The notes under the pieces: model-generated | What the model saw: only the letters and a program-made list of their open reading frames with translations | What the model was told of the DNA's origin: nothing | The model's database searches: none | Virus record (IMG/VR): IMGVR_UViG_3300025400_000049 | Span: 1 to 33,592 of that record | Length of the DNA stretch: 33,592 nt | Origin: a virus | Strand: one strand, 5' to 3' | Shown here: one piece after another, positions 2,711-17,721 of the stretch | Numbering within the stretch: the stretch's first letter is position 1 | Layout of the letters: every line of letters begins with the position of its first letter | Made by a program: the position numbers and the translations under genes

Positions 2711-2714
2711 ATCT

Positions 2715-2720
2715 TTGACA
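2715..2720 (+). promoter_or_regulatory. TTGACA leader element
   Basis: TTGACA in TTTGACAC lies 16 nt before the ATG at 2737, just after the large-terminase stop. A short TGCT/AGCA hairpin can form between it and the ATG. It belongs to the recurrent late-gene set; no -10 box sits at a normal distance, so it is not read as a -35 box. Confidence 0.55.
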
Positions 2721-2736
2721 CTGCTCCTCGGTAGCA

Positions 2737-3063
2737 ATGTCACTGAACTATTCGGCACTCAATAACGGCGGCCAAATCTCCTACTGCGTGCGCTACCTTC
2801 GGCGCACCCAGACCGTCGCGGCCTTGGAGGCATTAGCTGACAGCATCTTTCAGAGTGCCACTGACGAGGTCACCATCACCACCCTGGCGAACGATGGCGT
2901 TCACAGTTCCGGTCAGATCACGTTTCCAAAGAGCGTCATCGGCTACGCCGTTGAGAAACTCCTCATGGAGGCATCCATCAGCGGCATCACCGGGGAGAAC
3001 AAGCTCGACCCCATTCCCGGTCCCGTGATTGCCGATTTCTCTCACCGCCTCGTCAGGACGTAA
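2737..3063 (+). CDS. Small protein at the head-tail joining (gpW) position
   Basis: A 108-aa protein lying exactly between large terminase and portal, where lambdoid phages place gpW. gpW itself is about 68 aa and no clear gpW motif is visible, so the name is positional. The protein reads as helix (TVAALEALADSIFQSA), beta (TDEVTITT, SGQITFP), then another helix (VIGYAVEKLLMEASI), a compact alpha/beta layout compatible with a small connector protein. It follows a TTGACA element by 16 nt and ends 3 nt before the portal ATG, so it is probably cotranscribed with portal. Function is uncertain. Confidence 0.6.
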   Translation: MSLNYSALNNGGQISYCVRYLRRTQTVAALEALADSIFQSATDEVTITTLANDGVHSSGQITFPKSVIGYAVEKLLMEASISGITGENKLDPIPGPVIADFSHRLVRT

Positions 3064-3066
3064 TTT

Positions 3067-4641
3067 ATGGCCCGCAAGAAAACGATTAGCCCGTCCCGTC
3101 GCACCGGGAGCACGCCGACCCGCCGCCTTCCTTCCGTCGGGAAACCTACCGGAGGATCGGGTCCCGCCCGGATCAAGGCCGCTTACGGATACGACGCCGC
3201 CGTTCCCTCCATGCAGAGGGGATACATTTATTGGCCGACCCTTTCGCCGAGAGACGAGATCAACGTCTGGACCCGCCGCGAGATTGCCCGCAAGGTGCAT
3301 TATCTCATGGCCAACATGGGACTGGCTCGCCGCCTGCTCACTTCGATCACCAACATGGTCGTCGGCAACGGATTCAACCCGCAAGCGACCACCAAGGATG
3401 CCGAATGGAATGCCCTGGCAGATGCCGCGTATAACCGCCGCGCCCGGAGTGCCGCCACTTACGACGTCTCGGGTCGATTAACCGCCGTCCAGATGCAACG
3501 TCTGGCCTACTTGACACAGAAGAAAGACGGCGACGCCGCCATCGTATTCAGTGAAAGCCAGAGCGGTGGAGCGCTTCGCCGCCTCTATTCTGGAACACAA
3601 GTCGGTGAACCGATCGGCACCCTTGACAAGAAAATGAACGACGGCATCGCCGTCGATCGGCTCGGCCGCGCCCAGGCATTTTATTTCCTTGATGACGACT
3701 TTTCCAAAACCACACGGGTCGGTGCCGAAAATGTCGTCTGGATGTGCAACTTGGAAAGCCCCGGCCAGTTCCGTGGCGTCAGTTCGCTGGCACATGCCGT
3801 CAACAAGATGATCGACATCACCGAGCTGAACGCCTCGGTCATGCAAGGCATCAAACTCAGCAACCAGATCGGATACTACCTTGCTTCACAGGACAAGGAT
3901 GCCACCCCGGGGATCATGGATGCCCTGGCTGGCAAATATCAAACCGATCAAGTGGTTGGCACTGATAACAGTGGAAACTTACAAAGCATCCGCACCAGCG
4001 AAGTTTTTGGCATGGGTGGAGAGATCAAGGAAGTTCCCCCCGGCTATGACATCAAGACATTGCTTGATCAACGTCCCCACCCGAACAGCGTCGAATTCGT
4101 CGAGAATTCACTGATCCGTGATTGTTGCTGGGGTTTGGGCATATCGGACGCGCTGGGCTGGTCGATTTCTAAATTTGGCGGAGCAGGGGTCAGGTATGTT
4201 CTGGCCGACGCCCAGGCATGGATCAAGGCCGAGCAATCCAACTTTATTGATACCTGGCTCTCGCGTGATTGGACCTACACGATTGCCAAGGAGATGAAGG
4301 CCGGACGCCTTCGCAAGTGCAAGGATCCCGCCTGGTATTCCCATTCATGGATTCCTTGTGAGTCGGTGACCGTGGATTTCGGTCGTGACGGTCGCATCTA
4401 TCTTGAGCAACACCGCACCGGCCTGATCTCAACCGATCGCCTTTATAATCTCAAGGGTCAGGACGCCAAGGAAGAGGTCACCCGCGAAATGGATTTTGCC
4501 GTTTGGAGGAAGCAAGAAATGGAAAGCCGTGGCCTTTCCATGAGCGATCTCTACCCGGAGCTGAAAGTGGAGCAACCGATCGTCGAACCCCCTGTGGAGG
4601 AAGAGGACGTAAGCGCCCCCGGCAACCTTACAGGAAAGTAA
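3067..4641 (+). CDS. Portal protein, lambda gpB family
   Basis: The 524-aa protein should form the dodecameric portal ring at the capsid vertex, through which DNA enters and to which the tail joins. Family-typical features include a basic N-terminus, the ARRLLTSITNMVVGNGFNPQ-like segment near residues 80-100, the conserved block around QRLAYLTQKKDGDAAIVF (about 140-160), and the long mixed central domain with GVSSLAHAVNKMIDITEL. The C-terminus is acidic and disordered (VEEEDVSAPG). Length matches lambda-type portals. It is flanked by terminase and S49 protease, the standard order. The start codon follows the previous stop by 3 nt with no clear Shine-Dalgarno sequence. Confidence 0.92.
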   Translation: MARKKTISPSRRTGSTPTRRLPSVGKPTGGSGPARIKAAYGYDAAVPSMQRGYIYWPTLSPRDEINVWTRREIARKVHYLMANMGLARRLLTSITNMVVGNGFNPQATTKDAEWNALADAAYNRRARSAATYDVSGRLTAVQMQRLAYLTQKKDGDAAIVFSESQSGGALRRLYSGTQVGEPIGTLDKKMNDGIAVDRLGRAQAFYFLDDDFSKTTRVGAENVVWMCNLESPGQFRGVSSLAHAVNKMIDITELNASVMQGIKLSNQIGYYLASQDKDATPGIMDALAGKYQTDQVVGTDNSGNLQSIRTSEVFGMGGEIKEVPPGYDIKTLLDQRPHPNSVEFVENSLIRDCCWGLGISDALGWSISKFGGAGVRYVLADAQAWIKAEQSNFIDTWLSRDWTYTIAKEMKAGRLRKCKDPAWYSHSWIPCESVTVDFGRDGRIYLEQHRTGLISTDRLYNLKGQDAKEEVTREMDFAVWRKQEMESRGLSMSDLYPELKVEQPIVEPPVEEEDVSAPGNLTGK

Positions 4642-4644
4642 TGG

Positions 4645-4905
4645 ATGGAACTTCCCGACGAACTGTATCAGGACGCCGGTCACAGTCGGGGAACCTATAA
4701 CGGAAAGCCGATGCGGTTCATGGTGGAGACCGATCCCGGATATACCGATCTGAGTGACAATGCCACCGTGCTCAGAAAACTCATGGCATGGGAGCGCAAG
4801 AATCTTGGAGAACTCAGTTGGCATGCCTACATCCGCAGGAAAATCTCGGCCGAAATCAAAGAGAACATCGCTCGGAAAAAGAAAAAGTCGGTTTATATCC
4901 CCTGA
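4645..4905 (+). CDS. Small basic protein between portal and protease, unknown
   Basis: An 86-aa protein I do not recognise. It begins 3 nt after the portal stop. The ATG at 4641 overlapping that stop opens a different frame that ends after about 19 codons, so 4645 is preferred. The N-terminus is acidic (MELPDELYQD), the centre carries a helix around NATVLRKLMAWERKNLGELSW, and the C-terminus is strongly basic (ENIARKKKKSVYI), suggesting nucleic-acid or capsid-interior contact. Position between portal and prohead protease suggests a head-assembly role, but there is no direct evidence. Confidence 0.6.
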   Translation: MELPDELYQDAGHSRGTYNGKPMRFMVETDPGYTDLSDNATVLRKLMAWERKNLGELSWHAYIRRKISAEIKENIARKKKKSVYIP

Positions 4906-4913
4906 CTTCCGTT

Positions 4914-4919
4914 TTGACA
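4914..4919 (+). promoter_or_regulatory. TTGACA leader element
   Basis: TTGACA in GTTTTGACATCC lies 13 nt before the protease ATG at 4933, within a 27-nt gap. No Shine-Dalgarno sequence is present. It is a member of the late-gene leader set. Confidence 0.5.
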
Positions 4920-4932
4920 TCCGCCTGAGTGG

Positions 4933-5820
4933 ATGAAGCTCGCACGCATCGCCACCCGTCTTTACGCCACCCCGTGGCACATCCTTCCCGAGGCTCATCG
5001 CCGCCTCCAATCCCTCTTTGAGGCGCACCAGTCCCAACCGATCAGCTCCATTCTCACGACTGAGAACGACGGCGACCAGGACGACATGGAACAGAAGTCC
5101 TATGATGTCGAGAATGGCGTCGCCATCGTCCCGGTGAATGGCGTGATCGGAAAGCGTCTCAACATGCTGGAAATGATGTGCGGGGGTGCCGACGTCGATC
5201 AGATCGTCAATGCCGTCATGAAGGCCGACATGGATCCTTCCGTTCACAGCATCCTGCTTGATGTGAATAGCCCAGGCGGCATGGTCACCGGCACGCCCGA
5301 GGCGGCCGCATCGCTGGGGAAGACCGCCAAGCCCCTGTACGCTTTCACCGATTCCCAAATGTGTTCGGCGGCCTACTGGCTCGCCAGCGCCGCCACCTCC
5401 GGCATTTTTGTCACCGGATCGAGTGATGTGGGATCGATCGGAACTTATCTTGCGATGATCGACAGCTCCCGCGCTTACGAAATGGAAGGGCTGAAGCTGG
5501 AACTTTTCAAGGCTGGCCGGTTAAAAGCCATCGGTCTGGAAGGCAAATCGTTCACCGAGGAAGAGCGTTCGTTCCTTCAGGATGGAGTCGAGCGTGCCAA
5601 CAGCCGGTTCCTTGAAGCCGTCACCACCAACCGCGCCCAGGCCGGTTACAAGATTTCCGACGAGACCATGCAGGGACAGTGGTTCGACGGGGAACAAGCC
5701 GTGGCAAACGGCCTTGCCGACCGCATTGTCTCCGGGATCGGCGAAGTGATCGAACTGATTTCCCAAGACATTGATGAGGATGGCGATGGGGAGGAAGACG
5801 ACGACAACGACGGCATGTAA
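4933..5820 (+). CDS. Prohead protease, S49 (SppA-like) family
   Basis: A 295-aa serine peptidase of the S49 family used by lambda-type phages (gpC) to process the portal/scaffold during prohead maturation. The ClpP/SppA fold is evident: VAIVPVNGVIG (63-73), ILLDVNSPGG (107-116), the nucleophile in SQMCSAAYWLA with Ser145 as best candidate, and the general-base lysine in GRLKAIG (Lys198). The C-terminus is a very acidic tail with repeated D/E residues. Unlike lambda, where scaffold Nu3 is nested in gpC, the scaffold here is a separate downstream gene. The ATG at 4933 is 13 nt after TTGACA. Confidence 0.9.
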   Translation: MKLARIATRLYATPWHILPEAHRRLQSLFEAHQSQPISSILTTENDGDQDDMEQKSYDVENGVAIVPVNGVIGKRLNMLEMMCGGADVDQIVNAVMKADMDPSVHSILLDVNSPGGMVTGTPEAAASLGKTAKPLYAFTDSQMCSAAYWLASAATSGIFVTGSSDVGSIGTYLAMIDSSRAYEMEGLKLELFKAGRLKAIGLEGKSFTEEERSFLQDGVERANSRFLEAVTTNRAQAGYKISDETMQGQWFDGEQAVANGLADRIVSGIGEVIELISQDIDEDGDGEEDDDNDGM

Positions 5821-5841
5821 TCCGCCTCTTTTTTTAAAACT

Positions 5842-5847
5842 TTGACA
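5842..5847 (+). promoter_or_regulatory. TTGACA leader element
   Basis: TTGACA in ACTTTGACACCGCAC lies 21 nt before the ATG at 5869. The sequence TTTGACACCGCAC is identical to that at the end of the structured RNA at 8772-8867. The TTG inside it could in principle be read as a start codon in the same frame, but the ATG at 5869 is preferred. Confidence 0.55.
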
Positions 5848-5868
5848 CCGCACCTAGCTGGAAACCAC

Positions 5869-6372
5869 ATGAACATTTTCTCCCAATTAAAAGCCGCCCT
5901 TGCTGAAAAGGAAACCATCCTTGGCCAGCTTTCCGCCGCGCAAAACTCCTTGACCGAGGCCATCGCGCTGATCGAAACCAAGAACGGCCTGATTGCCGAA
6001 CTGGAAGCCGCCGCCGAAGGTCATTCGCTCAAGGTCAGCGAGTTGGAGCAACTTGCAAACGATCACGCCGCATCCCTTGAAGCCGCCAAGGTGCTTCATG
6101 CCGAAGAGATTTCCAAGCTCACCGAGGTCAAGGAAGCCCTGGAAGAGACCGACCGCCAGATCGACGAAGAGGTCGCCGCCGCAACCATTGATCAGGTAGC
6201 CGCCCTTGGTTTTGAGGCAAGCGCTCTTCCCCTAGAGGCCGATGCCGCCGCCAATGACCCGGCTTCGCTCTACGACCAGTGGAATTCCCTCAAGGGATCC
6301 GCAAAAACCAGCTTTTTCCGCGAACACAAGGCCGTGCTCCAGAAGTACGACGCCGAGCGTTCCAAGAAATAA
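5869..6372 (+). CDS. Putative capsid scaffold protein
   Basis: A 167-aa protein, almost entirely helical and rich in Glu, Ala, Lys and Leu. Residues about 3-105 are a long predicted coiled coil with heptad-like leucines (LKAALAEKE, LIAELEAAAE, VSELEQLAND, EEISKLTEVKEALEE). The basic C-terminal region has a WNSLKGSAKTSFFREHK segment of the kind that binds the coat protein in many scaffolds. It sits between S49 protease and major coat protein, the expected position. It is a positional and compositional assignment. A TTG 27 nt upstream is in frame but lies within the leader element. Confidence 0.72.
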   Translation: MNIFSQLKAALAEKETILGQLSAAQNSLTEAIALIETKNGLIAELEAAAEGHSLKVSELEQLANDHAASLEAAKVLHAEEISKLTEVKEALEETDRQIDEEVAAATIDQVAALGFEASALPLEADAAANDPASLYDQWNSLKGSAKTSFFREHKAVLQKYDAERSKK

Positions 6373-6431
6373 CCCCGAGCTAGGAATCCCCAAGCTCACC
6401 AACCCAACCCAACTCCCAACTCCTCACCATC

Positions 6432-7328
6432 ATGGCTAATTCCATCGCCAGCGATCTTCAGGTACAGGCTATCCTTGAAAACGCCCTTTTGGCTTTCAAG
6501 CGTACCCTCGCCCCGATTAACGCTTTCAGCACCGTGTATCGTGGCATCCCTCTTCAGGGTAATGACACCGTCACCGTTCCCTACTACCCGCTTCAGGGTA
6601 CCGCATCCAGCGACTTCAACGGGTCGTACAGCGCCGACGCAGGCACTGTCCAGAGCCGCAACGTCGTTGTCAACAAGCGCAAATATCAGGCGCTCAACAT
6701 TACCGGCTACGAACTCGCCCGCCAGCCCCACCTCTCCGTGGAGAAGCTGATGGACCGTCAGGCCGAGGCTCTTGCCCATGACGTCGTCATGGACATCCTG
6801 AGCGTTGTCAGCGCTTCCAACTTCGGAAGTGCGGTTTCCACGGGAGCACCCACTGCTTTCGATTTCACGGACATCGCCGACATCGTCACCGAGATCAACA
6901 ACAGCTACTGGCCAGTCGCCAACCGTAGCCTTGTGCTTTCCAGCACCTACCATGGAGCGCTCCTGAAGGATCCTTCCATTGCCAATTGGAACGCCATGGG
7001 TCAGGCCGGTGCCGACGTCAAGCTCAAGGGTGCTCTCACCCACATCGCCGGTCTGGACGTGTTCGTCACCCCGAACATCCCCGCCAACAGCGAGAACCTT
7101 GTCGGTTTTGCAACCCTGCCCGATGCCGCCCTGGTGGCTTTCGCGCCGATCGCTCCTGCGGACGACCGCATCACCCGTTACGTCACCGCCACCGATGACA
7201 ACGGACTCACCCTCGAGTACCGCGAGTACCCGATCCCCGGCTCGGACACTGTCCAGATGGTGATTGAGGCCAACTACGGCTACGGCAAAGGCGAAAGTGC
7301 CGCTCTCAAGCGCATCGTTTCCGCCTAA
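6432..7328 (+). CDS. Major capsid protein
   Basis: A 298-aa protein expected to assemble the icosahedral shell. It follows protease and scaffold, is followed by a strong terminator, and has the composition of an HK97-fold coat protein: N-terminal helix (LQVQAILENALLAFKRTLAP), an E-loop-like beta region (NDTVTVPYYPLQG), a spine-helix candidate (SVEKLMDRQAEALAHDVVMDIL), and A-domain beta strands near RSLVLSSTYHGALL and GLDVFVTPNIP. The exact coat subfamily is unclear to me. The 59-nt leader is rich in CCAAC/ACTCC repeats and has neither a Shine-Dalgarno sequence nor TTGACA, so this gene may start translation differently from its neighbours. Confidence 0.85.
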   Translation: MANSIASDLQVQAILENALLAFKRTLAPINAFSTVYRGIPLQGNDTVTVPYYPLQGTASSDFNGSYSADAGTVQSRNVVVNKRKYQALNITGYELARQPHLSVEKLMDRQAEALAHDVVMDILSVVSASNFGSAVSTGAPTAFDFTDIADIVTEINNSYWPVANRSLVLSSTYHGALLKDPSIANWNAMGQAGADVKLKGALTHIAGLDVFVTPNIPANSENLVGFATLPDAALVAFAPIAPADDRITRYVTATDDNGLTLEYREYPIPGSDTVQMVIEANYGYGKGESAALKRIVSA

Positions 7329-7350
7329 GAGATTCACCTCTCCTGCTCCG

Positions 7351-7386
7351 CCCCTCCTCTGGAAGAATTTCCGGGGGAGGGGTTTT
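7351..7386 (+). terminator. Rho-independent terminator after the coat gene
   Basis: CCCCTCC (7351-7357) pairs with GGAGGGG (7376-7382). An inner stem, CTGGAA with TTCCGG, extends the hairpin, and four T residues follow. The T-run is short, so some readthrough into downstream head/tail genes is likely. Placement right after the coat gene suits attenuation of distal late transcription. Confidence 0.75.
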
Positions 7387-7414
7387 GGGCTGAAGAGACC
7401 AGACGACTGGTACC

Positions 7415-7453
7415 GACAACGACAACCCCGACGACAACCCCGACGACAACCCC
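7415..7453 (+). repeat. 12-nt tandem repeat in 5' leader
   Basis: The unit GACAACCCCGAC occurs at 7421-7432 and 7433-7444, with a partial third copy at 7445-7453 and GACAAC just before at 7415-7420. It lies between the coat terminator and the ATG at 7476. No coding frame is convincing here. Its role is unknown. Confidence 0.7.
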
Positions 7454-7475
7454 AAAAGACACCCCTCGACACCTT

Positions 7476-7733
7476 ATGAGAATTTTCCTCCTCACGCTTT
7501 CCGAAGAGAGCGACCCGCGCAACCACCGGCATCAGTTGCTTGCCGGACCGACCAGCGATTACATGGCGCTTCGGGAGCAATTCCACGCCAAAAACAGCGA
7601 CAACGATTTTTCCATCCTTTCAATGTGGGATTCTACCGGGGGAGTGATTCGCCGCAAGAGGCTCATTAGTGAGAAGAAGCCAGCAGTTTCCAAGAAAGCC
7701 AAAGCCGAGAAATTGGAAATGGCCTCGGCCTAA
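7476..7733 (+). CDS. Hypothetical 85-aa head-region protein
   Basis: I do not recognise this 85-aa protein. It starts with MRIFLLTLSEESD, has a mixed alpha/beta middle (FSILSMWDSTGGVIRRKRL), and ends in a lysine/alanine-rich tail (KKPAVSKKAKAEKLE) that is probably disordered. It is the first gene after the coat terminator and tandem repeats. Small basic-tailed proteins here can be head decoration or connector proteins, but nothing in the sequence proves this. No Shine-Dalgarno sequence; TCGACA occurs 4 nt before the ATG, which may be coincidence. Confidence 0.6.
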   Translation: MRIFLLTLSEESDPRNHRHQLLAGPTSDYMALREQFHAKNSDNDFSILSMWDSTGGVIRRKRLISEKKPAVSKKAKAEKLEMASA

Positions 7734-7738
7734 TTGTT

Positions 7739-7990
7739 GTGTTGATCCGGGTGAATCCATCTACCGAAATTACTTCTGCCTGGGCAAAAGTCCGGCCGCT
7801 TCTTTCCACGCTTCCAGTGAAGCTCACGGGAGAAATTGCAACACTGGATTCCCATCTTTTTTCTTTGAAACAAATGGCCGCGCCCATGGAGAAAAAAGTC
7901 TTTTCTGAAACAACAATGATTTCAAAAAAATCAAACCATTGGCTTGGCAATTTTTTTAGCAAATTGGTTTCCAAGGCACGGGGCATCTAA
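7739..7990 (+). CDS. Hypothetical 83-aa protein with GTG start
   Basis: An 83-aa protein of unknown function, beginning with GTG at 7739, 5 nt after the previous stop and ending 3 nt before the next ATG. The tight spacing supports expression. The first half (NPSTEITSAWAKVRPLLSTLP) looks ordered; the end is basic (ISKKSNHWLGNFFSKLVSKARG). Its base composition is AT-richer near the 3' end. Position among head-completion genes suggests a virion or assembly role. Confidence 0.5.
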   Translation: MLIRVNPSTEITSAWAKVRPLLSTLPVKLTGEIATLDSHLFSLKQMAAPMEKKVFSETTMISKKSNHWLGNFFSKLVSKARGI

Positions 7991-7993
7991 GTC

Positions 7994-8320
7994 ATGGCAC
8001 TTTCCGACAGCATAGCGGCCATGGCCGCAAGGAGCACCGCCGCCAGGGATGCCCTGGCAAGCAATGTCACTTATCGTGGCAACACCGAACGGGCGGTTCT
8101 TTCCACACCGGATCCCAAGTTTGATTTGCAACTCGGAGGGTATCGTAGCGATGCCAGCTTTGAGTGCCGGTTCCTTCGTGTTATTACGCCGGTTCCCACC
8201 TTGGGGGAACTTGTGACCCTTCAGTCCACGGGCGAAACCTATCAGATTCTGGATATCATTCCGGCAAGCGGTGACCCGGCTCGGGCAACCGAAACCCGCG
8301 TCACCCTGAAAACTCCATAA
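7994..8320 (+). CDS. Putative head-tail connector (gpFII-like position)
   Basis: A 108-aa protein with an N-terminal helix (SIAAMAARSTAARDALA) followed by beta-rich sequence ending in GETYQILDIIPASGDPARATETRVTLK. A helix then a small beta barrel whose last strand reports DVxxxDPVRxxxRVTL-like residues is usual for head-tail joining proteins of the FII class. Length (108 aa; FII is 117) and place between coat and tail-terminator candidate support this. The call is structural-pattern inference; no catalytic motif is expected. Confidence 0.6.
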   Translation: MALSDSIAAMAARSTAARDALASNVTYRGNTERAVLSTPDPKFDLQLGGYRSDASFECRFLRVITPVPTLGELVTLQSTGETYQILDIIPASGDPARATETRVTLKTP

Positions 8321-8331
8321 TTTTCAACGCC

Positions 8332-8760
8332 ATGACCGCAGATATCGAACTTGGCCTCATTGGCATCCTTTCTACCCAAGCATCCCTAGATGGACTGATC
8401 ATTCATCCAGGCACAAGTGCCGAACAAATTCCCAATGGCCAACCGCTACTCATTGTGGAGGCTACCAATGCCCAGCGCACGGCCTTGGGACTCTGGAAAT
8501 CGACTTGTCCTCTTCGTCTGACCACTCCGGCCGCCGGCAGTGATTTGGCGCTCCATCGTCACCGGGCTTCGGCGATCGTCGCGCTCTTTGACCAGTATGG
8601 TCAGGGTCCGTCATCTTCCCTGGCATCTGATTTCAATGCCGCACAAACATCATGGAGCTACGCGGGCTTGGCAGGGATGACCGTCAGGGAGCAGGTGGAT
8701 CACGAACGTCATGTGATCGACATTGAAATCGATATCGGTGTGACCCCGGTGGTGGCGTGA
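8332..8760 (+). CDS. Putative tail terminator / minor tail protein (gpU-like)
   Basis: A 142-aa protein lying just before the tail-tube candidates, where tail terminators such as lambda gpU are found. It contains an N-terminal helix with GLIGILSTQASLDG, a beta segment, a helical stretch around ALHRHRASAIVALFDQYG, and a final beta-rich part, VDHERHVIDIEIDIGVTP, resembling the closing strands of gpU-like proteins. It would cap the finished tail and set the head interface. The assignment is from position and fold-like pattern. It is followed directly by the first structured-RNA copy. Confidence 0.55.
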   Translation: MTADIELGLIGILSTQASLDGLIIHPGTSAEQIPNGQPLLIVEATNAQRTALGLWKSTCPLRLTTPAAGSDLALHRHRASAIVALFDQYGQGPSSSLASDFNAAQTSWSYAGLAGMTVREQVDHERHVIDIEIDIGVTPVVA

Positions 8761-8771
8761 TGGGATGTTGG

Positions 8772-8867
8772 CTTTTGACGGCAGTCGCCTCCCGGCGACC
8801 GGTGCCGCCCTTCGGGCTACTCCTACGTCGTAGTCTTACGCGCCGGTTCCCACCGGCTTGTTTGACA
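8772..8867 (+). ncRNA. Structured leader RNA, copy A (TTGACA-terminated)
   Basis: This intergenic element shares conserved linkers with 17625-17721. Stems seen: P1 CGGCA 8779-8783 with TGCCG 8803-8807; P2 GTCGCC 8784-8789 with GGCGAC 8794-8799, loop TCCC; P3 CCC 8808-8810 with GGG 8814-8816; P4 CTAC 8817-8820 with GTAG 8830-8833; P5 GCCGGT 8842-8847 with ACCGGC 8852-8857, loop TCCC. It ends in TTTGACA (TTGACA 8862-8867), 14 nt before the tail-tube ATG. P2, P4 and P5 differ from copy B by paired changes, which argues for an RNA structure acting in the mRNA. I do not recognise the family. It could be a translation-control leader, a processing signal or a separate small RNA. Confidence 0.72.
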
Positions 8868-8881
8868 CCGCACTTAGGGAT

Positions 8882-9202
8882 ATGAGCGCAACCTTTGGCG
8901 TCGGAACCCTTCCGATCACTCCCAATTACACGGGCAACGTGCAGTCTTTCACGGAGACGACAACCGCCACGATCAAAACCTACCGCGACGAATCTGGCGT
9001 TACGGTTGCGGCTTTGCCGGTACCGATGGTAGAGCACAAGGTTTCGATCGATGTGGTCGGTACGGCAACCTTTGGTCTGACGCACAATTCTTCAATAGGA
9101 AGTGGAACACTGACGGTCATTTCCGTGTCTCAGGACGACACCAACGATGATTTTCCAAAAACAAAAATCGAAGCAGTCGCCTACAGCGCAAACGCCTCAT
9201 AA
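8882..9202 (+). CDS. Tail-tube candidate, paralogue 1
   Basis: A 106-aa beta-rich protein beginning MSATFGVGTLPITPN. It resembles the next protein in length, in the MSAT start, in a mid-region T-K-T-Y/D pattern, and at the end (GTLTVISVSQDDTNDDF versus GKIIVDMVETTQKNDDF). Small repetitive-use beta proteins between tail terminator and assembly chaperone are typically tail-tube or tube-like subunits. No large single major tail protein is visible, so one of this pair probably forms the tube. The ATG at 8882 is 14 nt after TTGACA; GGGA lies 4 nt upstream and may act as a weak Shine-Dalgarno sequence. An in-frame TTG at 8858 would start inside the RNA and is less likely. Confidence 0.6.
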   Translation: MSATFGVGTLPITPNYTGNVQSFTETTTATIKTYRDESGVTVAALPVPMVEHKVSIDVVGTATFGLTHNSSIGSGTLTVISVSQDDTNDDFPKTKIEAVAYSANAS

Positions 9203-9217
9203 TTTTTTTATCATTAC

Positions 9218-9541
9218 ATGAGCGCAACTTATACAGGTGGTATCGGAATCAACCTTCTCTCGGCCACGGCTCTTACCAAGGTAAGTGTCACCAATAAATT
9301 GGAGACAAAAACCTACATGGATTACAAGGGAGGGTTTGGCGGTTTTGCCACATTTGATCCAACCGGAGAAATGTCCTGCGAAGGGTACGGCGACACAAAT
9401 CCGGCCACGATTGCCACTCCAACCACAGGTCCCACCGGACTTACTTCGGGCAAGATCATCGTTGATATGGTGGAAACCACGCAAAAGAACGACGATTTCC
9501 GTGCGTTCAAATACACCGCCAAAATCTTTCCCGGCGCATAA
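9218..9541 (+). CDS. Tail-tube candidate, paralogue 2
   Basis: A 107-aa beta-rich protein related to the preceding one, rich in Thr and Gly with a TATPTTGPTGLTSGK turn region and a closing strand FKYTAKIFPGA. It lies 15 nt after its paralogue and before the chaperone genes. Tandem duplication suggests either two tube subunit types or a tube protein plus a cap/adaptor. No Shine-Dalgarno sequence is present before the ATG; the leader is a T-run then ATCATTAC. Which of the two is the abundant tube protein cannot be decided from sequence. Confidence 0.6.
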   Translation: MSATYTGGIGINLLSATALTKVSVTNKLETKTYMDYKGGFGGFATFDPTGEMSCEGYGDTNPATIATPTTGPTGLTSGKIIVDMVETTQKNDDFRAFKYTAKIFPGA

Positions 9542-9566
9542 TCGTTAAGCGCGGTGACATTTTAGA

Positions 9567-10037
9567 ATGAAAACAGGCCAGACATACCATTATCTGCGGG
9601 ACGAAGAGGATCCGCTCAAATCGCCCAACACCCAAGCCATCGGAGCGCTTCTTACTTGCGGCGGGCAACTTGTCAAGGAAGGGGGATACCTTAATGCAAT
9701 CGGCACTCAGGATGGCAAACCGACCAGGACGGTTGTTTGGGTTGCGGAAGAGCGTGAAATTGAATTTTCGGCTTTTTCCGGTGAGACAATCAGCACTCAG
9801 GAACTGTTGCGCCGGTGGAACGACCGGTCATGGCTCGCGGCCAACCTTGATCACCCGATCACCTACCTGCGCACTTACATGGAAAAGATCGGCAAATTGC
9901 GCGATGCCATCCGGGATAATCCACCGCAACTACACATCCAGAAGAGCGGCCGGAGCGCTTATGTCTCGACGACTCGCGGGCCTGATGGGAAACTGGTGCC
10001 TACCGAGCGCGGTCGCAAGCTTTTGGAACTTTTTTGA
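9567..10037 (+). CDS. Hypothetical tail-region protein (156 aa)
   Basis: I do not recognise this 156-aa protein. It is mixed alpha/beta: an N-terminal segment with TYHYLRDEEDPLKSPN, a beta region VVWVAEEREIEFSAFSGE, and a helical C-terminal half (TYLRTYMEKIGKLRDAIRD) ending in a basic, GRKLLELF tail. GTGACA, one base off the recurrent TTGACA, lies 7 nt before the ATG. It sits between tail-tube candidates and the chaperone pair, so a tail-assembly function is the most likely, though unproven. Confidence 0.6.
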   Translation: MKTGQTYHYLRDEEDPLKSPNTQAIGALLTCGGQLVKEGGYLNAIGTQDGKPTRTVVWVAEEREIEFSAFSGETISTQELLRRWNDRSWLAANLDHPITYLRTYMEKIGKLRDAIRDNPPQLHIQKSGRSAYVSTTRGPDGKLVPTERGRKLLELF

Positions 10038-10039
10038 TC

Positions 10040-10453
10040 ATGAGCAAGAAAACTCCTTCCGTGTTGAACAAAGCATTCCGCGACTCGCCGATTATTTGGA
10101 ACGGACTGACCTTTCATCGGTTTTCTTTGGAAACGCAACTTATCGTGATGGATGCGGAGCTGACATTCCTTTACGACCCATCGGTGAAACTTTCGGTGAC
10201 CGAACAAATCCAGCAAATGACGGAATTCCTGTATATTCATGGGACAGATCCCGATGCCGTTCCGTTTAAGAGTGATTCGCCGGAAAGCTATCGGAGCGCG
10301 GTTCGTCAGTTTGCCCGCAGAATCCCGATGACCGGTCTGGTCGGCTTGCGTGATGTGGTCGAACAAATCGTGGCCGGAGTGCATGAGGCCACCGTTGATG
10401 TTCACGACAAACCGGGCATTGGGTCTTCCAAGGAAACACCCCCCCCAAACTGA
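10040..10453 (+). CDS. Tail assembly chaperone, short (G-like) product
   Basis: A 137-aa protein ending 3' to an eight-C run. Its position before the tape measure, and the downstream frame lacking its own start, match the lambda G/GT arrangement, in which G and the frameshifted GT coat the tape measure during tail polymerisation. Sequence is helical in the second half (RSAVRQFARRIPMTGLVGLRDVVEQIV) with an acidic, Pro-ending tail KETPPPN. The ATG at 10040 is preferred to the TTG at 10034, which would only add two residues. No sequence motif defines this family; the call is from architecture. Confidence 0.7.
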   Translation: MSKKTPSVLNKAFRDSPIIWNGLTFHRFSLETQLIVMDAELTFLYDPSVKLSVTEQIQQMTEFLYIHGTDPDAVPFKSDSPESYRSAVRQFARRIPMTGLVGLRDVVEQIVAGVHEATVDVHDKPGIGSSKETPPPN

Positions 10454-10689
10454 GGGAGCCATCCCGTACCGCCTCGCTGGTCTTCACGATCGCAAAGGAA
10501 ACGGGATGGCCGGAACGCCACATCTTGCGCATGCCGCTGGCCAGGCTCCTGCAGTATCTGCACGCTTGCTACCGCAGTCACGACATCTGGACGGTGGATG
10601 CCAGCCCTTCAAAAGAAATCCAGTTGGAAGAGCTTGGGACGCTTTTGGAATTCTTTGACACCCCTGCTGTGGAAGACGATCCATGGTAA
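10040..10689 (+). CDS. Predicted -1 frameshift fusion (GT-like tail chaperone)
   Basis: At 10441-10447 the zero-frame reads C CCC CCA, a heptamer fitting X XXY YYZ, within C-run 10439-10446. Slipping back one base continues through AAA CTG AGG to TAA at 10687-10689, adding 80 residues (starting KLREPSRTAS, ending PAVEDDPW) for a 216-aa fusion. The added frame has no ATG near its beginning, is open from the slip site and reads like real protein (LVFTIAKETGWPERHI), so it should only be made by frameshifting. Its end overlaps the next gene start at 10683. Frameshifting itself is predicted, not shown; a +2 shift is a less likely alternative. Confidence 0.8.
10655..10660 (+). promoter_or_regulatory. 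TTGACA leader element inside the T frame
   Basis: TTGACA in TTCTTTGACACCCC lies 22 nt before the ATG at 10683. Unlike the others it is inside coding sequence (frameshift extension), so the match could be partly accidental. Spacing equals that of the 5842 and, if the second ATG is used, the 16543 elements. Confidence 0.35.
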
Positions 10690-11384
10690 GAATCACACCC
10701 CGCAACACCGACAAATTCCTTCGGGCTTTCGACACCTACATGCGCGATTCCAAGCGGTCACGCATGGAGGCCATGAAGACCCAGGCACGCGGCATTCTGC
10801 GCACGGTGATCGCCGTGACGCCTCCGAGCGGTTGGGATCCTTCAGCCGGTGAAATGACCAGCGGCGGCGAAGCTCGGAAACGTGGGGAACAAGCCGTCAT
10901 GAATGATCTGGCAAAGATCATGCGTGCCTACAGCGGAAAGAAACCCGATTCCAGTTCGCCTGGTTCAATTCACAAATCCTTTCGTCAGGCATCGACCGGC
11001 CGCGTCCAGAAATCATTGAACAAAGCTGGAAAAAAAGACCAGCGGTTCAAAGTACCGACGGCCATCCTTCGTGCCTACAAGCAGGAAAAGAAGAAAATGG
11101 TCGGTTTTTTGGCAAGCGGTTGGATTCCGGCGGCAAAGAAATTGGGAAAAGTTCGTTACCCCGCATGGATCGGCCGTCACAGCGCCCCTGGTCATTGTGA
11201 TTTGAGCATCGGACCAAAGGGGATCGCATTCCGAGCATCGAACGAGGTCAAGTTTGCCGGTCACATGAAAGACATGCAACGCCGCGTCACCTATGCCGTG
11301 AATGTGCAGATAAAAAACATGACCAAGATTTTGAAAAACCTTGAGGAGAAACAGATGAAAGCATCGGGACTTCCGGTGAAATAA
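10683..11384 (+). CDS. Hypothetical tail protein (HK97 gp10-like N-terminus)
   Basis: A 233-aa very basic protein, starting within the last codons of the frameshift extension. The N-terminal part (TDKFLRAFDTYMRDSKRSRMEAMKTQARGILRTVIAVTPPSG) resembles HK97 gp10/gpZ-type tail completion proteins, where a helix is followed by a TPxxSG turn. The middle is Lys/Ser rich (SFRQASTGRVQKSLNKAGKK) and the rest returns to alpha/beta (GFLASGWIPAAKKLGKVRYP). Its position after the chaperones is unusual for gpZ-like proteins, which normally precede the tube. A tail-completion or tape-measure-associated function is inferred. Confidence 0.5.
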   Translation: MVRITPRNTDKFLRAFDTYMRDSKRSRMEAMKTQARGILRTVIAVTPPSGWDPSAGEMTSGGEARKRGEQAVMNDLAKIMRAYSGKKPDSSSPGSIHKSFRQASTGRVQKSLNKAGKKDQRFKVPTAILRAYKQEKKKMVGFLASGWIPAAKKLGKVRYPAWIGRHSAPGHCDLSIGPKGIAFRASNEVKFAGHMKDMQRRVTYAVNVQIKNMTKILKNLEEKQMKASGLPVK

Positions 11385-11387
11385 GCC

Positions 11388-12902
11388 ATGAGCGTCGAAT
11401 TTGCATTGGACCTGATCACCGGGTCGTTTGATTCAAAAATTGCCAAGAGCAAGCATGAGCTAAAAGATTTTAGCGAATCGGCTTCCAAGCTTGGGGAAAA
11501 GATCGGCATCGGCGAACTTCTGGCACCTCTTGCGGCGGCCACGGCTTCCGTGGCAACGCTGGGCGGGATCATGGAAGGCATCCATGGAGCGGTGGAATTG
11601 GGCGATGACATGGTCAACCTTTCCAACAGGACGGGCATTGCCGTCGATCAGCTCATGATGATGCGGCGGCTGTTCAGGGACAGTGGAGTGGAGGCCGAAA
11701 AAATCGGTCCCAGCATTGGGAAAATGCAGAAATATCTTTCCGAAGCCGTTTCGACGGGTGGCACCCCGGTTCTCAAGAACATGGGAATTGATGCCCAGGC
11801 AGAGGCAAACAAAAAACCAGATGAAGCGTTCCGAGACATAGGGACAGCCATTTCACAGATTGGCAATGATTCAGACCGCGCCAAGGCGGCACTGGCCATC
11901 TTTGGCAAGCAGGGAAGCGAATTGCTTCAGATCTTCATGAACCCCGATTTCAAGAATGCAGGGGATATTTCCGCCACAGCGGCAAAGCTTGGGGAAAACG
12001 CTTATCTGTTCAAGGAAGCGCATGACCAGTTGGAACATGTGGGTGAAAAGCTTCAAGGGCTTTTCATAGGACTGGCGGGGCCGGTCATGGCCGCCCTGGA
12101 ACCGCTTTTGGAAGTTGGCGACCAGATCGATCTTTCCGGTGTGGGTGAGCAAATGGGGAATTTTTTGGAAAACTTTGCCACCGATTTCGACAAACAATTT
12201 GAAGAAGTCTTTGAAGGGCTTGGCGATTTTCTTGGGGATCTCTTGGGGCATATTCCTGAATTCATCGTTGGTGCGGTCGGTATCTTGGGTGGTCTTATCG
12301 AAAAGCTCGGTGCCGCCCTCCTGTTTGCGTTTCATACGCCGCTCGATTACTTGCAGGCCGCGATCCAGACCGCGATCGAGAAACTGATGGAAGGTGTCGG
12401 AAATATCCCGGGACTCAATAACCTCACCGGCACCACCGGATTCAAAGCCTCAAGCTTTGATGAAAACCTCAAGCAGGTTCAGGCCGAGGGTAATGGAGCC
12501 ACGCAGCTTGCCCGTCAGGGATCACAGGATGCCAACGGCACCATGAAAGAAGGCGGGGGTCTGATTGTTGATTCCATCAAGCAAAGCCTTGGCGCATTCA
12601 AAGGGGCATTTACGGCCACGGAAAAGAGCACCGCAGTCTTGAGTGAGGCACGGGAAAAGAACCGCAAAAAATATGCTCAAAACCTGAGCGGTGACGATGA
12701 GGTGGAGGGCATTGGGAAAAACAAAAATGCCTTTGCCGACTCATTGCGGAAAATCGGCGGGGGAGGATTTGCCGGTGGCCAAGGGGACCCCCTTTTGGAT
12801 GAAAACAGGCGACAGACCGGACTGCTTCAACGGATTGCTGATGCGGCAACAAGAAAAAATCCCGACATCGGTTCTGGTCCCTTTGGTGCTCGGTTTGCAT
12901 AA
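11388..12902 (+). CDS. Tape measure protein
   Basis: At 504 aa this is the longest tail gene, placed right after the chaperones, and it has tape-measure traits: long helical, Ala/Gly/Leu-rich sequence, a hydrophobic central region (FIVGAVGILGGLIEKLGAALLFAF, about residues 285-308), and the usual C-terminal ending, GGGGFAGGQGDPLLDENRRQ followed by a helix. If the usual relation of about 0.15 nm per residue applies, the tail would be near 75 nm, short for a siphovirus. No lytic-transglycosylase or peptidase domain is visible. It begins 3 nt after the previous stop. Confidence 0.85.
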   Translation: MSVEFALDLITGSFDSKIAKSKHELKDFSESASKLGEKIGIGELLAPLAAATASVATLGGIMEGIHGAVELGDDMVNLSNRTGIAVDQLMMMRRLFRDSGVEAEKIGPSIGKMQKYLSEAVSTGGTPVLKNMGIDAQAEANKKPDEAFRDIGTAISQIGNDSDRAKAALAIFGKQGSELLQIFMNPDFKNAGDISATAAKLGENAYLFKEAHDQLEHVGEKLQGLFIGLAGPVMAALEPLLEVGDQIDLSGVGEQMGNFLENFATDFDKQFEEVFEGLGDFLGDLLGHIPEFIVGAVGILGGLIEKLGAALLFAFHTPLDYLQAAIQTAIEKLMEGVGNIPGLNNLTGTTGFKASSFDENLKQVQAEGNGATQLARQGSQDANGTMKEGGGLIVDSIKQSLGAFKGAFTATEKSTAVLSEAREKNRKKYAQNLSGDDEVEGIGKNKNAFADSLRKIGGGGFAGGQGDPLLDENRRQTGLLQRIADAATRKNPDIGSGPFGARFA

Positions 12903-12911
12903 CGATCGTCC

Positions 12912-13622
12912 ATGAGCCTGATTGACGGATCATTTTTGTTGGGGGAAAAGCGATCCATTGATCGCACGGGTCTTTATAAAATTACCCGAAACGTCTTTTT
13001 TTCATCCAAGGAATCAGCCGTGACAGGAACGTATGCAGAAGTCGGCAACACCTATGATGGGGCGCTCTTTGTGGGTGGCGGTGGGAAAGGGGATGAGGCC
13101 GGAAATTGGGTTTGCAACTGGAATTACGAAAAGGTTGCTGGTTCTTCTGAAGTAAATACATCAAACGACATTGGATTGATTGAAGAGCTTGATTTCAGCT
13201 CGATTCAAAGTCCCATTCAAACAAGCCCCAATTTTCAAAACCTTGTTTCGACTTACGGATGGGATGAGGCAACGCAATCGTTTCCCAAAAAGATATCTGG
13301 TGGAAATGACAGCCCGGTATTTGGAACAACCGATTTCCTTTCCTATTCATGCGTCTATCGTCAGATCCAAACATTGGAATCGGTACCTTCGACGATTTTC
13401 GACAATATCGGCACGATTGACGACAACGTGCCGTTTCAAAAAATCGCCGATCCTGCGGAAGGTGATGAGCGCACCTGGCTATATTTGGCGCCCAAGATTG
13501 CCTCCCGAGGGAATGCTTTTCAAATCACTCAGGAATGGATGTTGTCGGGATTTGGCACTGGATGGATCCCCGAAATCTATTCTCAAGTGGCTTTAAGCGT
13601 TTTGAATACTTCCGACAACTAA
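12912..13622 (+). CDS. Distal tail protein, paralogue 1
   Basis: A 236-aa protein with no family I recognise, but clearly related to the following gene. Shared blocks are DRTGLY/F, I-x-EELDFS ... PIQ-x-x-PNF, a FDNIG-I segment, and a final W-L-x-L-x-PKI-x-SR ... WMLSG-x-G block. Beta-rich composition and position after the tape measure suggest a distal tail or baseplate component. No lambda-type gpM/L/K/I/J set follows, so the tail tip differs from the standard model. Confidence 0.6.
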   Translation: MSLIDGSFLLGEKRSIDRTGLYKITRNVFFSSKESAVTGTYAEVGNTYDGALFVGGGGKGDEAGNWVCNWNYEKVAGSSEVNTSNDIGLIEELDFSSIQSPIQTSPNFQNLVSTYGWDEATQSFPKKISGGNDSPVFGTTDFLSYSCVYRQIQTLESVPSTIFDNIGTIDDNVPFQKIADPAEGDERTWLYLAPKIASRGNAFQITQEWMLSGFGTGWIPEIYSQVALSVLNTSDN

Positions 13623-13629
13623 GGAATTT

Positions 13630-14259
13630 ATGAGTATTGAAATCATCGGTGGCAGTTTTACGCTTGATCGGACGGGGCTTTTTACACAGACCGACCGCTA
13701 TGCGTTTCCCTCTCAGGATGGCGCATTGCCAACCGAAGCGGAAAACTTTGCCGCCGCTTACGAAGAATCAAATTTCTCGGTTGATGAGAGTGGTGCATTT
13801 TGGGTTGGCGAATATCGATCCACGGATGCCCAAGGGATGATCACCGAGGAACTGGATTTTTCCATGCACGAGGAACCGATCCAGAGCCATCCCAATTTCC
13901 TGACCAAAGATACGGGCATCGCCGCCGTGTATAAATACGATCCGGCCTCCAATTCCTTTGCCAAAACAAAACCGGATGGATCCCCCAATCCGTTGTATGG
14001 TTGCACCAGTTATCTTGCGATGACGGCGACTTTTAGAAAAAACCAATCCGTTGGAAACCTTGATTCTGTGGATGGGTTGTTTGATAATATCGGCAAAATC
14101 TCGGGTCCGACCTACGATTTGATCACGATTCCGGTGATTGATTGGAGAAATTGGTTGAAATTGACCCCCAAGATTGTGTCTCGATCTGGCGTGTTTGAAG
14201 TGAGCGAATCCTGGATGCTGAGTGGAGCTGGCGGTTGGAACAGCAAAATTTACGTTTGA
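13630..14259 (+). CDS. Distal tail protein, paralogue 2
   Basis: A 209-aa paralogue of the preceding protein with the same DRTGLF, TEELDFS ... EPIQSHPNF, LFDNIGKI and WMLSGAGG segments. It starts 8 nt after the previous stop; AAGGA upstream gives a weak Shine-Dalgarno match, one of few in the late region. Tandem duplication with divergence suggests two rings or a heteromeric tip. The function is inferred from position only. Confidence 0.6.
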   Translation: MSIEIIGGSFTLDRTGLFTQTDRYAFPSQDGALPTEAENFAAAYEESNFSVDESGAFWVGEYRSTDAQGMITEELDFSMHEEPIQSHPNFLTKDTGIAAVYKYDPASNSFAKTKPDGSPNPLYGCTSYLAMTATFRKNQSVGNLDSVDGLFDNIGKISGPTYDLITIPVIDWRNWLKLTPKIVSRSGVFEVSESWMLSGAGGWNSKIYV

Positions 14260-14265
14260 TTGACA
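14260..14265 (+). promoter_or_regulatory. TTGACA leader element
   Basis: TTGACA immediately follows the stop at 14257-14259 and lies 14 nt before the ATG at 14280. TATAAT occurs at 14276-14281, but the 10-nt spacer is too short for an ordinary sigma-70 promoter and the box overlaps the start codon. Confidence 0.5.
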
Positions 14266-14279
14266 TCTTGGCTTCTATA

Positions 14280-14495
14280 ATGACCACACCGATCACGATC
14301 ACGATCCCGTCCAAACCCGTCCAGGTTTCATTGTCCATCAGCGCCGATCAGGTCAATGGACTTGTGGAGCTTTTGCAAAACGCCCCCGCTTCGGTAATTG
14401 CGTTTCCTGAAAATAAAACGGCTTCGGATCTGACTCTTTTCTCGTTGTCGATCACCCCGTCGGGTGCTGGCAAATTGGTTTTGGCGCTCAAGTGA
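14280..14495 (+). CDS. Small Thr/Ile-rich protein, unknown
   Basis: A 71-aa protein starting MTTPITITIPSKPVQVSLS, with beta-rich first half and a helix (ADQVNGLVELLQNAP). I do not recognise it. It follows the paralogous distal tail genes and a TTGACA element by 14 nt. An in-frame TTG 45 nt earlier would start inside the preceding gene and across the leader element, so the ATG is preferred. Likely a small virion or assembly protein. Confidence 0.55.
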   Translation: MTTPITITIPSKPVQVSLSISADQVNGLVELLQNAPASVIAFPENKTASDLTLFSLSITPSGAGKLVLALK

Positions 14496-14532
14496 GCCGA
14501 TTGATTCCAGATTTTATTTTTTAGTTTTTGCC

Positions 14533-15099
14533 ATGATCACGCTTCCGTCGAAAGTTTCGCGGGGTGATGAAGTTACTGCGGCCTGGGCCAACAAAGTGGT
14601 GGATACCCTGGCAAGCTTAAGGCCAATGGCGGGGGAGGGGACAAGGGTCTCGCAGACTCCCGGCGGTTTTATTGTTTCTTCAAACGTCCCATTTCAGAAA
14701 AAAACCCTTCCGTTTGATATCATACTTTCGGTCAATAATGCAGGTGAAGATCAGATGTTGTTGATGCCAGGCACCGTATCCGGTTTTTTAGCGTCTAACA
14801 TTTTTACTCCGATCACAGTTGATTTGACCCAGCAAGTGAATGTCTCTTTAAACGTCACGGCCACCAATGGATCGGTAACATCCGTCAATATCATGGCGGG
14901 AACGGATCCATTTACGGGACAAACTCCAACTGCTTATGAACCGTCGGGGGAATTTCAGATTCCCGCCGGAGTCATTATCGATGGAAAACCGTGGAATCTG
15001 CTGGCAAAAAATTGGGTCAATCCCGTTCCCGTGGTTGCTTACACGACTTACGAAGGGGATACCAACACCCCGGTGCCACATTACATCTGGACCTGGTGA
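14533..15099 (+). CDS. Hypothetical distal tail protein (188 aa)
   Basis: A 188-aa protein starting MITLPSKVSRGDEVTAAWANKVVDTLASLRP. The opening, with a RGD...VTAAWANxVVDTL helix, resembles the start of many phage tail/fibre-adaptor proteins, in which a short N-terminal segment docks on the tail. The rest is beta-rich with many Val/Thr strands (TVDLTQQVNVSLNVTATNG). It ends 3 nt before the next gene, so the two are probably coexpressed. An adaptor or fibre N-terminal part is a reasonable inference; no direct evidence. Confidence 0.55.
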   Translation: MITLPSKVSRGDEVTAAWANKVVDTLASLRPMAGEGTRVSQTPGGFIVSSNVPFQKKTLPFDIILSVNNAGEDQMLLMPGTVSGFLASNIFTPITVDLTQQVNVSLNVTATNGSVTSVNIMAGTDPFTGQTPTAYEPSGEFQIPAGVIIDGKPWNLLAKNWVNPVPVVAYTTYEGDTNTPVPHYIWTW

Positions 15100-15102
15100 T
15101 CC

Positions 15103-16533
15103 ATGGCGGCCTTTTACGATCTGGACGGACATAACGTAACGTCAAGCTCGAGCTATGAGGTGACGGGATCGTATGCGATGACGTTCCCAACAGTTCAGGC
15201 CGGATCGTATGTGTATCAGGATTTGACCGGCGGCAATCAAACGGCAACTGGATTAGCCATCGGATCTGATAGCAGTTCCTCAACGTCATGGGCATACACA
15301 TCTTACGAGACATTCACGGCGCAAACCGACACCGAGACATCTCCGCATCCGATTACTCATGTAGGTAATTTTACAAATATCCCTGCAAATTTTCAGGGAC
15401 ATCTTTTGGAGCTATCAACCGATTCAAGCTGGGAACAGGGATTTGTAATTTTTACCAATTCGTATGATTCAGATCCTAACTGGAATTCTTATGTGACCCG
15501 CTATGACGTGGCCACAATTTGGGATACGGATGTGGGGTTGGCCAATTCGTATTCAACAACTGTTGTCACGGTTTATCCGCCCGCTGAAACAATTTATCTG
15601 ACATCTTCTGTGGAATTGATGGGGGGATTTGTTGGGGGGGATATTTTTACCGAATATCCTTATTCTGAAACTGGTGATTGGAGGAATGAAGATCGATATC
15701 ACATGACTCCTGTTCAGGCGCCGCAAATGGAAACGTTGACATTGACAACGGGATTTTCCACAAATTCTTCTGGTTCATCCTACACCGAACTCTATGGATT
15801 GTATAAGAGACATGGTAACCAATCAACGGGCTATAAATATACAGGAGGGGCCAACCAACTGTTTACATTTGATCAAGTTACTCTTCCAATTTATCCGCCA
15901 AATCTTGTACCTGATAGCATGGCAAAGTTTGTTTTTGAAAATGGAGTTGCAACAACGGCCACCACAATTACCCAGGGGTTTGTTTTGGATGGTTCCAATT
16001 ACAAAGGTTTTTCTTTTGGGATTTCAGATTCAACCAACAACTGGGTCGAAATTGCAAATGTTACCCCGCAACTTCAGTTAATCGTTCCCAATAACTATTT
16101 TGGCGTTCCCTACGAATATGGATTTCAAAGCGGGTTCAGTTATGACGTGGGAAGTTATGATGCGTTGGAAAAAAGCATGGCGCTTTATTGGCAAACGACG
16201 ACCAGCGGATCAGACACGACAAAATCTGTTGTTTCCAGCACCACTTTTGAAAATCAATACGCTGGAGAAGCGGTAACTTATTCCACAAGTAATTGGGCAA
16301 CTGCCATAGCCATCAATGGAACGATTCCAGCCACCCTGGCTGGAATGTGGGGATTTACTTCTTACTATTCAACCGGCACGTCAACCGCCTCGACGCATTT
16401 TTCCACCACCTATGGAAATTCTTTTTATACAGTTTCAACCCATGCAATGACCATAGGAGAACCAGGAATTGATGTCGTGGCAAGTCCCAAAGGGCTTATC
16501 GCAGAGGTGTATGGATATTCAGGATATTTTTAA
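15103..16533 (+). CDS. Putative tail fibre / receptor-binding protein
   Basis: A 476-aa protein very rich in Ser, Thr, Tyr, Gly and Asn, with long beta-like stretches (SYEVTGSYAMTFP, TETLTLTTGFSTNSSGS-type composition) and no catalytic motif. Such composition is typical of fibres and receptor-binding proteins. Base composition is visibly AT-richer than the coat and terminase genes, as expected of a frequently exchanged host-range gene. Its N-terminus is not obviously homologous to known fibre anchors. It starts 3 nt after the preceding gene and is followed by a TTGACA element and a glycosyltransferase-like gene. Confidence 0.6.
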   Translation: MAAFYDLDGHNVTSSSSYEVTGSYAMTFPTVQAGSYVYQDLTGGNQTATGLAIGSDSSSSTSWAYTSYETFTAQTDTETSPHPITHVGNFTNIPANFQGHLLELSTDSSWEQGFVIFTNSYDSDPNWNSYVTRYDVATIWDTDVGLANSYSTTVVTVYPPAETIYLTSSVELMGGFVGGDIFTEYPYSETGDWRNEDRYHMTPVQAPQMETLTLTTGFSTNSSGSSYTELYGLYKRHGNQSTGYKYTGGANQLFTFDQVTLPIYPPNLVPDSMAKFVFENGVATTATTITQGFVLDGSNYKGFSFGISDSTNNWVEIANVTPQLQLIVPNNYFGVPYEYGFQSGFSYDVGSYDALEKSMALYWQTTTSGSDTTKSVVSSTTFENQYAGEAVTYSTSNWATAIAINGTIPATLAGMWGFTSYYSTGTSTASTHFSTTYGNSFYTVSTHAMTIGEPGIDVVASPKGLIAEVYGYSGYF

Positions 16534-16542
16534 ATGTAAAAA

Positions 16543-16573
16543 TTGACATCAATTCATGGGTAACGATCCCATG
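16543..16573 (+). promoter_or_regulatory. TTGACA element plus start-codon hairpin
   Basis: TTGACA at 16543-16548 is followed by CATGGG (16555-16560), a 7-nt loop, and CCCATG (16568-16573). The perfect 6-bp hairpin contains both in-frame ATGs, 16556 in the left arm and 16571 in the right arm. From the first ATG the TTGACA spacing is 7 nt, from the second 22 nt; the second agrees better with the other elements. The hairpin may limit translation until melted. Confidence 0.5.
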
Positions 16574-17593: not shown

Positions 17594-17624
17594 GTGAGTT
17601 TGTTGTTGGTTGCCGATCGTCCCC

Positions 17625-17721
17625 CTTTTGACGGCACTTTGCTCCCACAAAGCGGTGCCGCCCTACGGGCTATTTCTGTCGAAATAGTCTTACGCGCCTC
17701 TTCCCAGAGGCTTGTTTGACA
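17625..17721 (+). ncRNA. Structured leader RNA, copy B (TTGACA-terminated)
   Basis: The second copy of the element at 8772-8867. Stems: P1 CGGCA 17632-17636 with TGCCG 17656-17660; P2 CTTTG 17637-17641 with CAAAG 17648-17652 around loop CTCCCA; P3 CCC 17661-17663 with GGG 17667-17669; P4 CTATTTC 17670-17676 with GAAATAG 17681-17687; P5 GCCTCT 17696-17701 with AGAGGC 17706-17711, loop TCCC. The linkers CTTTTGACGGCA, CGGTGCCGCCC, TAGTCTTACGCGCC and GGCTTGTTTGACA are the same as in copy A, while stem bases differ in matched pairs. TTGACA (17716-17721) lies 14 nt before the ATG at 17736. Confidence 0.72.

Follow-up and report, generated by a model that had tools for sequence, protein, structure and literature searches.

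Why would an uncultured phage place the same stretch of about 96 nucleotides in front of two of its genes, with linkers almost unchanged and stems altered on both sides at once? The window analyzed here, i.e. the whole of a 33.6-kb IMG/VR record, encodes a lambda-type terminase, the portal, an S49 head protease and the major head protein on its left side and the replication genes on its right side. A DNA polymerase III beta clamp and an ATP-dependent ligase-like protein are encoded at 26648-29155.

Fold, covariation and relatives of the element

The element, referred to below as type I, occupies two intergenic positions. Copy A is bordered by a gene ending at 8760 and a gene starting at 8882, and copy B by a gene ending at 17593 and a gene starting at 17736. 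No third copy was found in the record by a sequence scan or by a covariance model. The 3' end of the element reads CTTGTTTGACA. Its parts are as follows.

8772..8867, plus strand: type I element, copy A, 96 nt (covariance model 110.6 bits)
8773..8779, plus strand: left TTTTGAC of copy A, the left flanking repeat on the side of the insertion site (from the filled/empty comparison of sister phages)
8779..8807, plus strand: P1 and P2 of copy A (P1 8779-8783/8803-8807; P2 8784-8789/8794-8799)
8808..8816, plus strand: P3 hairpin of copy A, CCC-UUC-GGG
8817..8833, plus strand: P4 of copy A, a helix varying in length and sequence across the family, its inner part imperfect in this copy
8834..8865, plus strand: P5 of copy A, with a UCCC loop and conserved internal mismatches
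8861..8867, plus strand: TTTGACA of copy A; the ATG at 8882 is 14 nt downstream
17625..17721, plus strand: type I element, copy B, 97 nt (covariance model 103.7 bits)
17715..17721, plus strand: TTTGACA of copy B; the ATG at 17736 is 14 nt downstream

The first-pass annotation had described these two copies at these positions, and we found its comparison accurate. The linkers are nearly identical, both sides have changed in four of the five P2 pairs and in two of the six P5 pairs, a C-G pair of the outer P4 stem has become U-A, and the UCCC loops of P2 and P5 are retained in both copies. A sixth P2 pair is a C-A mismatch in copy B. From these matched changes it had concluded that structure is under selection, and had called for a covariation analysis of homologues.

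Such homologues exist. Exact-pattern scans, in which true relatives were picked from the matches by reading the remainder of the element, gave at least 27 distinct copies in at least about 20 IMG/VR phage contigs. The covariance model finds one to four clear copies per phage record, and on about 0.5 Mb of other contigs it gave three hits at E<=1, all of them true copies, with no false hit. In the five-helix model, 95% of the cells of the 27 distinct copies are paired, a percentage that leans towards the model since the alignment was fitted to it. Double changes occur in 18 of the 32 pairs. Over the same copies, which are related so that cells are not independent, 123 cells are double-changed, a count that falls to 10-23 once the structure is slid; sliding the partners lowers the covariation score from 0.395 to 0.04-0.06. 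Divergent copies add support for two pairs beyond the seed alignment of 16 sequences, namely the outer P1 pair, where C-G is replaced by U-A in four distinct copies, and the inner P5 pair, with the same replacement. P3 is nearly invariant and thus receives little covariation support. The conserved unpaired positions are the UCCC loops of P2 and P5, the CNG bulge (three nucleotides which, with the UCCC loop, lie in the P1/P2 region of copy A), UCNNANGCG before P5 and the terminal UUUGACA. Altogether, covariation across the 27 distinct homologues supports the view that structure is selected.

The polarity of this structure is less clear. Apart from one invariant G-U pair, variation stays almost wholly within Watson-Crick pairs (G-U in 3 cells, A-C in 8), and such a scarcity of G-U is unusual for an RNA family. 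Variation of this near-pure kind gives no preference for the mRNA strand, and a structure of single-stranded DNA is possible. Folding of the single sequences, which is weaker evidence than covariation among homologues, gives z-scores of -2.1 and -4.6 on the plus strand and almost equal values on the minus strand.

The family had not been recognized from the letters, and the database searches agree: Rfam 15 returned no match at E<=1 in the whole record and, in three sister stretches, no match that overlaps an element. ARAGORN gave no tRNA or tmRNA match to the element, and blastn searches of INPHARED with copy A and of PLSDB with copy B returned nothing relevant. A strict 3' pattern, which would miss divergent copies, gave 15 hits in 84,980 prokaryote genomes, all attributable to chance on inspection, and no true copy. 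In phage G007, a tRNA-like match (RF00005, 32.6 bits) at L246:5516-5570 lies close to where a type I element begins. The relatives all come from metagenomic contigs, their start codons are predicted, and the element-bearing phages share orthologous genes and form one broad group. Their closest named terminase is that of Akkermansia phage Moulinsart (39.5% identity), a likeness that only hints at a Verrucomicrobiota host; the TTTGACA motif is absent from Moulinsart.

Gain, loss and conservation at a fixed site

The element is present in some phages and absent from others at orthologous genes. The clearest case is provided by two phages with near-identical flanks, one empty (G009) and one filled (G012), which differ by exactly 86 extra nucleotides between TTTGAT and TTTGAC|A. 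This exact insert indicates that the element is a discrete unit. A similar contrast between filled and empty sites is seen at the portal gene, at the cluster-1 genes and for one type III element (see below). Moreover, copies at different genes of phage G005 are 93% alike, and a copy of phage G003 upstream of an unrelated gene shares 98% identity with copy B. A decayed type I copy in L234 (G007:19186-19285, minus strand) is followed by no start codon and lies on the strand opposite to that phage's other copies.

Two further element types use the same site. Types II and III are structured, start after TTTGA/TTTGTC, end with TTTTGACA and are found in tandem with type I, some of them truncated. 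Type II (L245/L051, L087, L176, L235 and L252) is built as TTTGTCTGCCGATC..hairpin..GACTAAG..hairpin..TTTTGACA, upstream of late genes, and had no Rfam match in stretches L245 and L246. Type III (L051, L087, L184, L254 and L326-L329) reads TTTGATTCGCTCGC...CAGTCTAACCGG..CACC..ACGTTTTGACA at the TTTGACA site, and its P5 displays C-G to U-A changes.

These observations have a cost. Sites that are filled or empty and copies that are nested or truncated have the look of a mobile DNA repeat, which counts against a reading of the element as a leader RNA. A DNA repeat of the MITE kind had been named at the outset as what would speak against a selected RNA, and part of that case is now before us: the element is discrete and insertable, and its empty sites are clean. 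The main alternative is a non-autonomous palindromic insertion, IS200/IS605-like or REP-like, whose single-stranded DNA hairpins would be recognized by a tyrosine (Y1) transposase acting in trans. Insertion 3' of TTTGAY would regenerate TTTGAC|A and would be harmless before a start codon. The exact 86-nt insert speaks for it: G009 against G012, and other pairs, show a unit with subterminal hairpins placed precisely 3' of a short, fixed target, as expected of this class. On the left flank, TTTGAT|G is close to TTGAT|G, the target of ISDra2 (PMC2806898, PMC5934647). So do the three element types found at one site, in tandem and sometimes truncated, the 93% likeness of copies at different genes of one phage, the decayed L234 copy and a covariation that is of Watson-Crick type only. 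However, Pfam family PF01797 of the Y1 transposases is found in none of 18 phage records, a count that covers phages only, so that the host could be the source. The target motif is conserved even without an insert, nearly all intact copies share one orientation and one distance to the start codon, and deletion between TTTGAY repeats could also yield empty sites.

Conservation bears on the same point. Where orthologous sites carry the element, its copies are 95-100% identical, whereas identity in the flanks, which are mostly coding, is often only 70-90%; for copy A and L009 the values are 96.9% and 73%, and in nine portal-gene leaders the element is 96-100% identical. An element better conserved than mostly coding flanks is presumably maintained, even if recent and repeated replacement of the element, or recombination passing through it, could produce the same pattern. 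This level of conservation at shared sites argues against a merely selfish insert, and we regard the IS200/IS605-like origin as a serious but rather unlikely explanation. The two ideas could also be combined, a functional leader RNA spreading as a mobile unit.

The TTTGACA motif and late-gene leaders

In most copies, the TTTGACA that ends the element lies 13-17 nt upstream of the next start codon, and all three element types terminate in it. It is also the most enriched combination of heptamer and distance before ATG in these phages: among 91 distinct sites, 22 lie at a distance of 13 nt and 11 at 14 nt, where 1.5 would be expected for each. At 13-17 nt the motif precedes 16 unrelated gene families, whereas all 21 heptamers with one mismatch precede 0-4 and windows at other distances give 0-6. 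Many TTTGACA-led genes have no element, among which four in the window.

2714..2720, plus strand: TTTGACA without element, 16 nt before the ATG at 2737
4913..4919, plus strand: TTTGACA without element, 13 nt before the ATG at 4933 (head maturation protease)
5841..5847, plus strand: TTTGACA without element, 21 nt before the ATG at 5869; sister phages hold a type I or II element here
10654..10660, plus strand: TTTGACA without element, 22 nt before the ATG at 10683

In the comparison with a diverged relative (G001), the leader around the motif has changed, yet at 2737 and 4933 both the motif and its spacing persist. In nine cellular genomes, TTTGACA-N13/14-ATG is not a strong feature; only a Treponema MAG (G025) clearly exceeds the reversed-pattern control. 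Its count (33 against 4 reversed) is higher than in the other eight and may reflect coding composition.

The genes concerned mostly lack a Shine-Dalgarno sequence. With the early/late split and the start sites assigned in this analysis, a Shine-Dalgarno of -6 kcal/mol or better precedes two of 26 late genes and seven of 12 early genes of this phage. Over all phages, one is found at 6 of 53 TTTGACA-led starts. The predicted late genes, which largely lack one, lie at 2700-20300, and the early and replication genes, which often have one, at 20800-33100. The leader of the major head protein gene (6380-6431) is rich in C and A (CCCAACCCAACTCCCAACTCCTCACCATC) and contains neither Shine-Dalgarno nor TTTGACA.

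Two other readings were considered and abandoned. An in-frame TTG at 8858 and 17712 was dropped as a start codon because the 13-nt spacing of most copies places it out of frame. A sigma-70 promoter with TTGACA as its -35 box was rejected, no -10 hexamer being found 16-18 nt downstream.

A further possibility is that UUUGACA-N13-AUG is itself a ribosome entry signal independent of Shine-Dalgarno, the element being an enhancer, not always needed, that brings the 30S subunit into position. The tight spacing between motif and start, the weak Shine-Dalgarno at TTTGACA-led starts and the conservation of the motif without the element are all consistent with it. However, some conserved sites lie at 21-34 nt, both Shine-Dalgarno and UUUGACA are missing from several late genes, and no ribosomal contact is known for the heptamer, so that this role appears improbable to us. 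Still less credible is an attenuator (a conditional intrinsic terminator) or an RNase processing site, made of P5 and its U-rich tail, that would separate the late cistrons. P5 followed by TTGTTTGACA is indeed the sole terminator-like hit at each copy, but its stem has only six pairs, its U tract is broken, one weak hit per copy compares with 0.4-0.5 expected by chance, and P1-P4 as well as the distance to the start codon would be left unexplained.

We propose that the element is a modular, cis-acting structured RNA of the intercistronic leaders of late genes, which would act on a trans factor via UUUGACA and the UCCC hairpins; on balance we consider this reading probable, by a little. The element is gained and lost as a unit, its fold covaries, its 3' end is start-proximal and it is conserved above its flanks; its action in cis on the late mRNA is what we infer from these observations. 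The element would be gained or lost at TTTGAY|A and maintained by selection where present. In the nascent or mature transcript of late genes, which for the most part have no Shine-Dalgarno, it would offer a trans factor the start-proximal UUUGACA and the UCCC-loop hairpins. The likeliest candidate for this factor would be NusB-S10 of the Nus complex, recruited in the manner of boxA, which could keep RNA polymerase elongating through the late genes or tune their initiation. The recruitment of NusB-S10 by UUUGACA, suggested by analogy, is a tentative step that we would not bet on, and a constant gap of 13 nt before the start codon is more easily reconciled with translation control than with pure antitermination. 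A broader version, which we find more doubtful still, is that UUUGACA about 13 nt upstream marks the late genes in place of a Shine-Dalgarno, and that types I-III are interchangeable mobile modules which plug into this mark and load the transcription or translation machinery.

If the leader-RNA proposal were true, an uncultured phage group would run its late operon by a start-proximal RNA signal and swappable structured modules. This would be a new case of late-gene control at the RNA level, with a short recognition motif that is directly testable, and of a structured RNA module able to spread through precise insertion at its own signal.

Comparison with known systems

A parallel can be drawn with the boxA/nut sites of lambda, of rrn leaders and of the suhB leader, which have in common with the element a U-rich ...UUUNACA beside hairpins and near gene starts (PMC5725501). 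Nus factors are recruited by boxA sites lying near start codons, with effects on translation and on Rho termination in suhB (PMC5725501). The gamma-proteobacterial boxA consensus is GYTCTTTAANA (PMC5725501); CTTGTTTGACA does not conform to it, although the core is similar. The core of the element has a G where the E. coli consensus has an A. Among rrn leaders of MAGs, that of one Saccharibacteria MAG has TCCTTTGACA upstream of the 16S, that of a second MAG has GTTCTTTGAAA, and no such sequence was seen in a Planctomycetota MAG. UUUGACA resembles boxA in sequence, which we take as a lead and not as membership. The element differs by its 96-nt multi-hairpin body and its many copies along the late operon, and Nus-factor binding is only putative.

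The put RNA of phage HK022 occurs, like the element, in more than one copy per phage. It belongs to early operons and acts directly on RNA polymerase, whereas the element lies before late-gene start codons, and the two have neither a sequence match nor an Rfam match. What they would share is to be cis-acting structured RNAs encoded by a phage (PMC9378689).

Like IS200/IS605 insertions (ISDra2, IS608) and REP/REPIN sequences, the element has hairpins near its ends, an insertion point 3' of a short, T-rich target and no long target duplication. In contrast, no transposase was found in the phage records, and the element is tied strictly to start codons and conserved above the flanking genes. Finally, the orphan structured RNAs revealed by comparative genomics (PMC2864571) resemble it in their covariation support, in a function that is unassigned and in their origin, partly from phage or metagenome DNA; from these the element, which has no Rfam hit, is set apart by its modular presence and absence at a fixed start-proximal motif.
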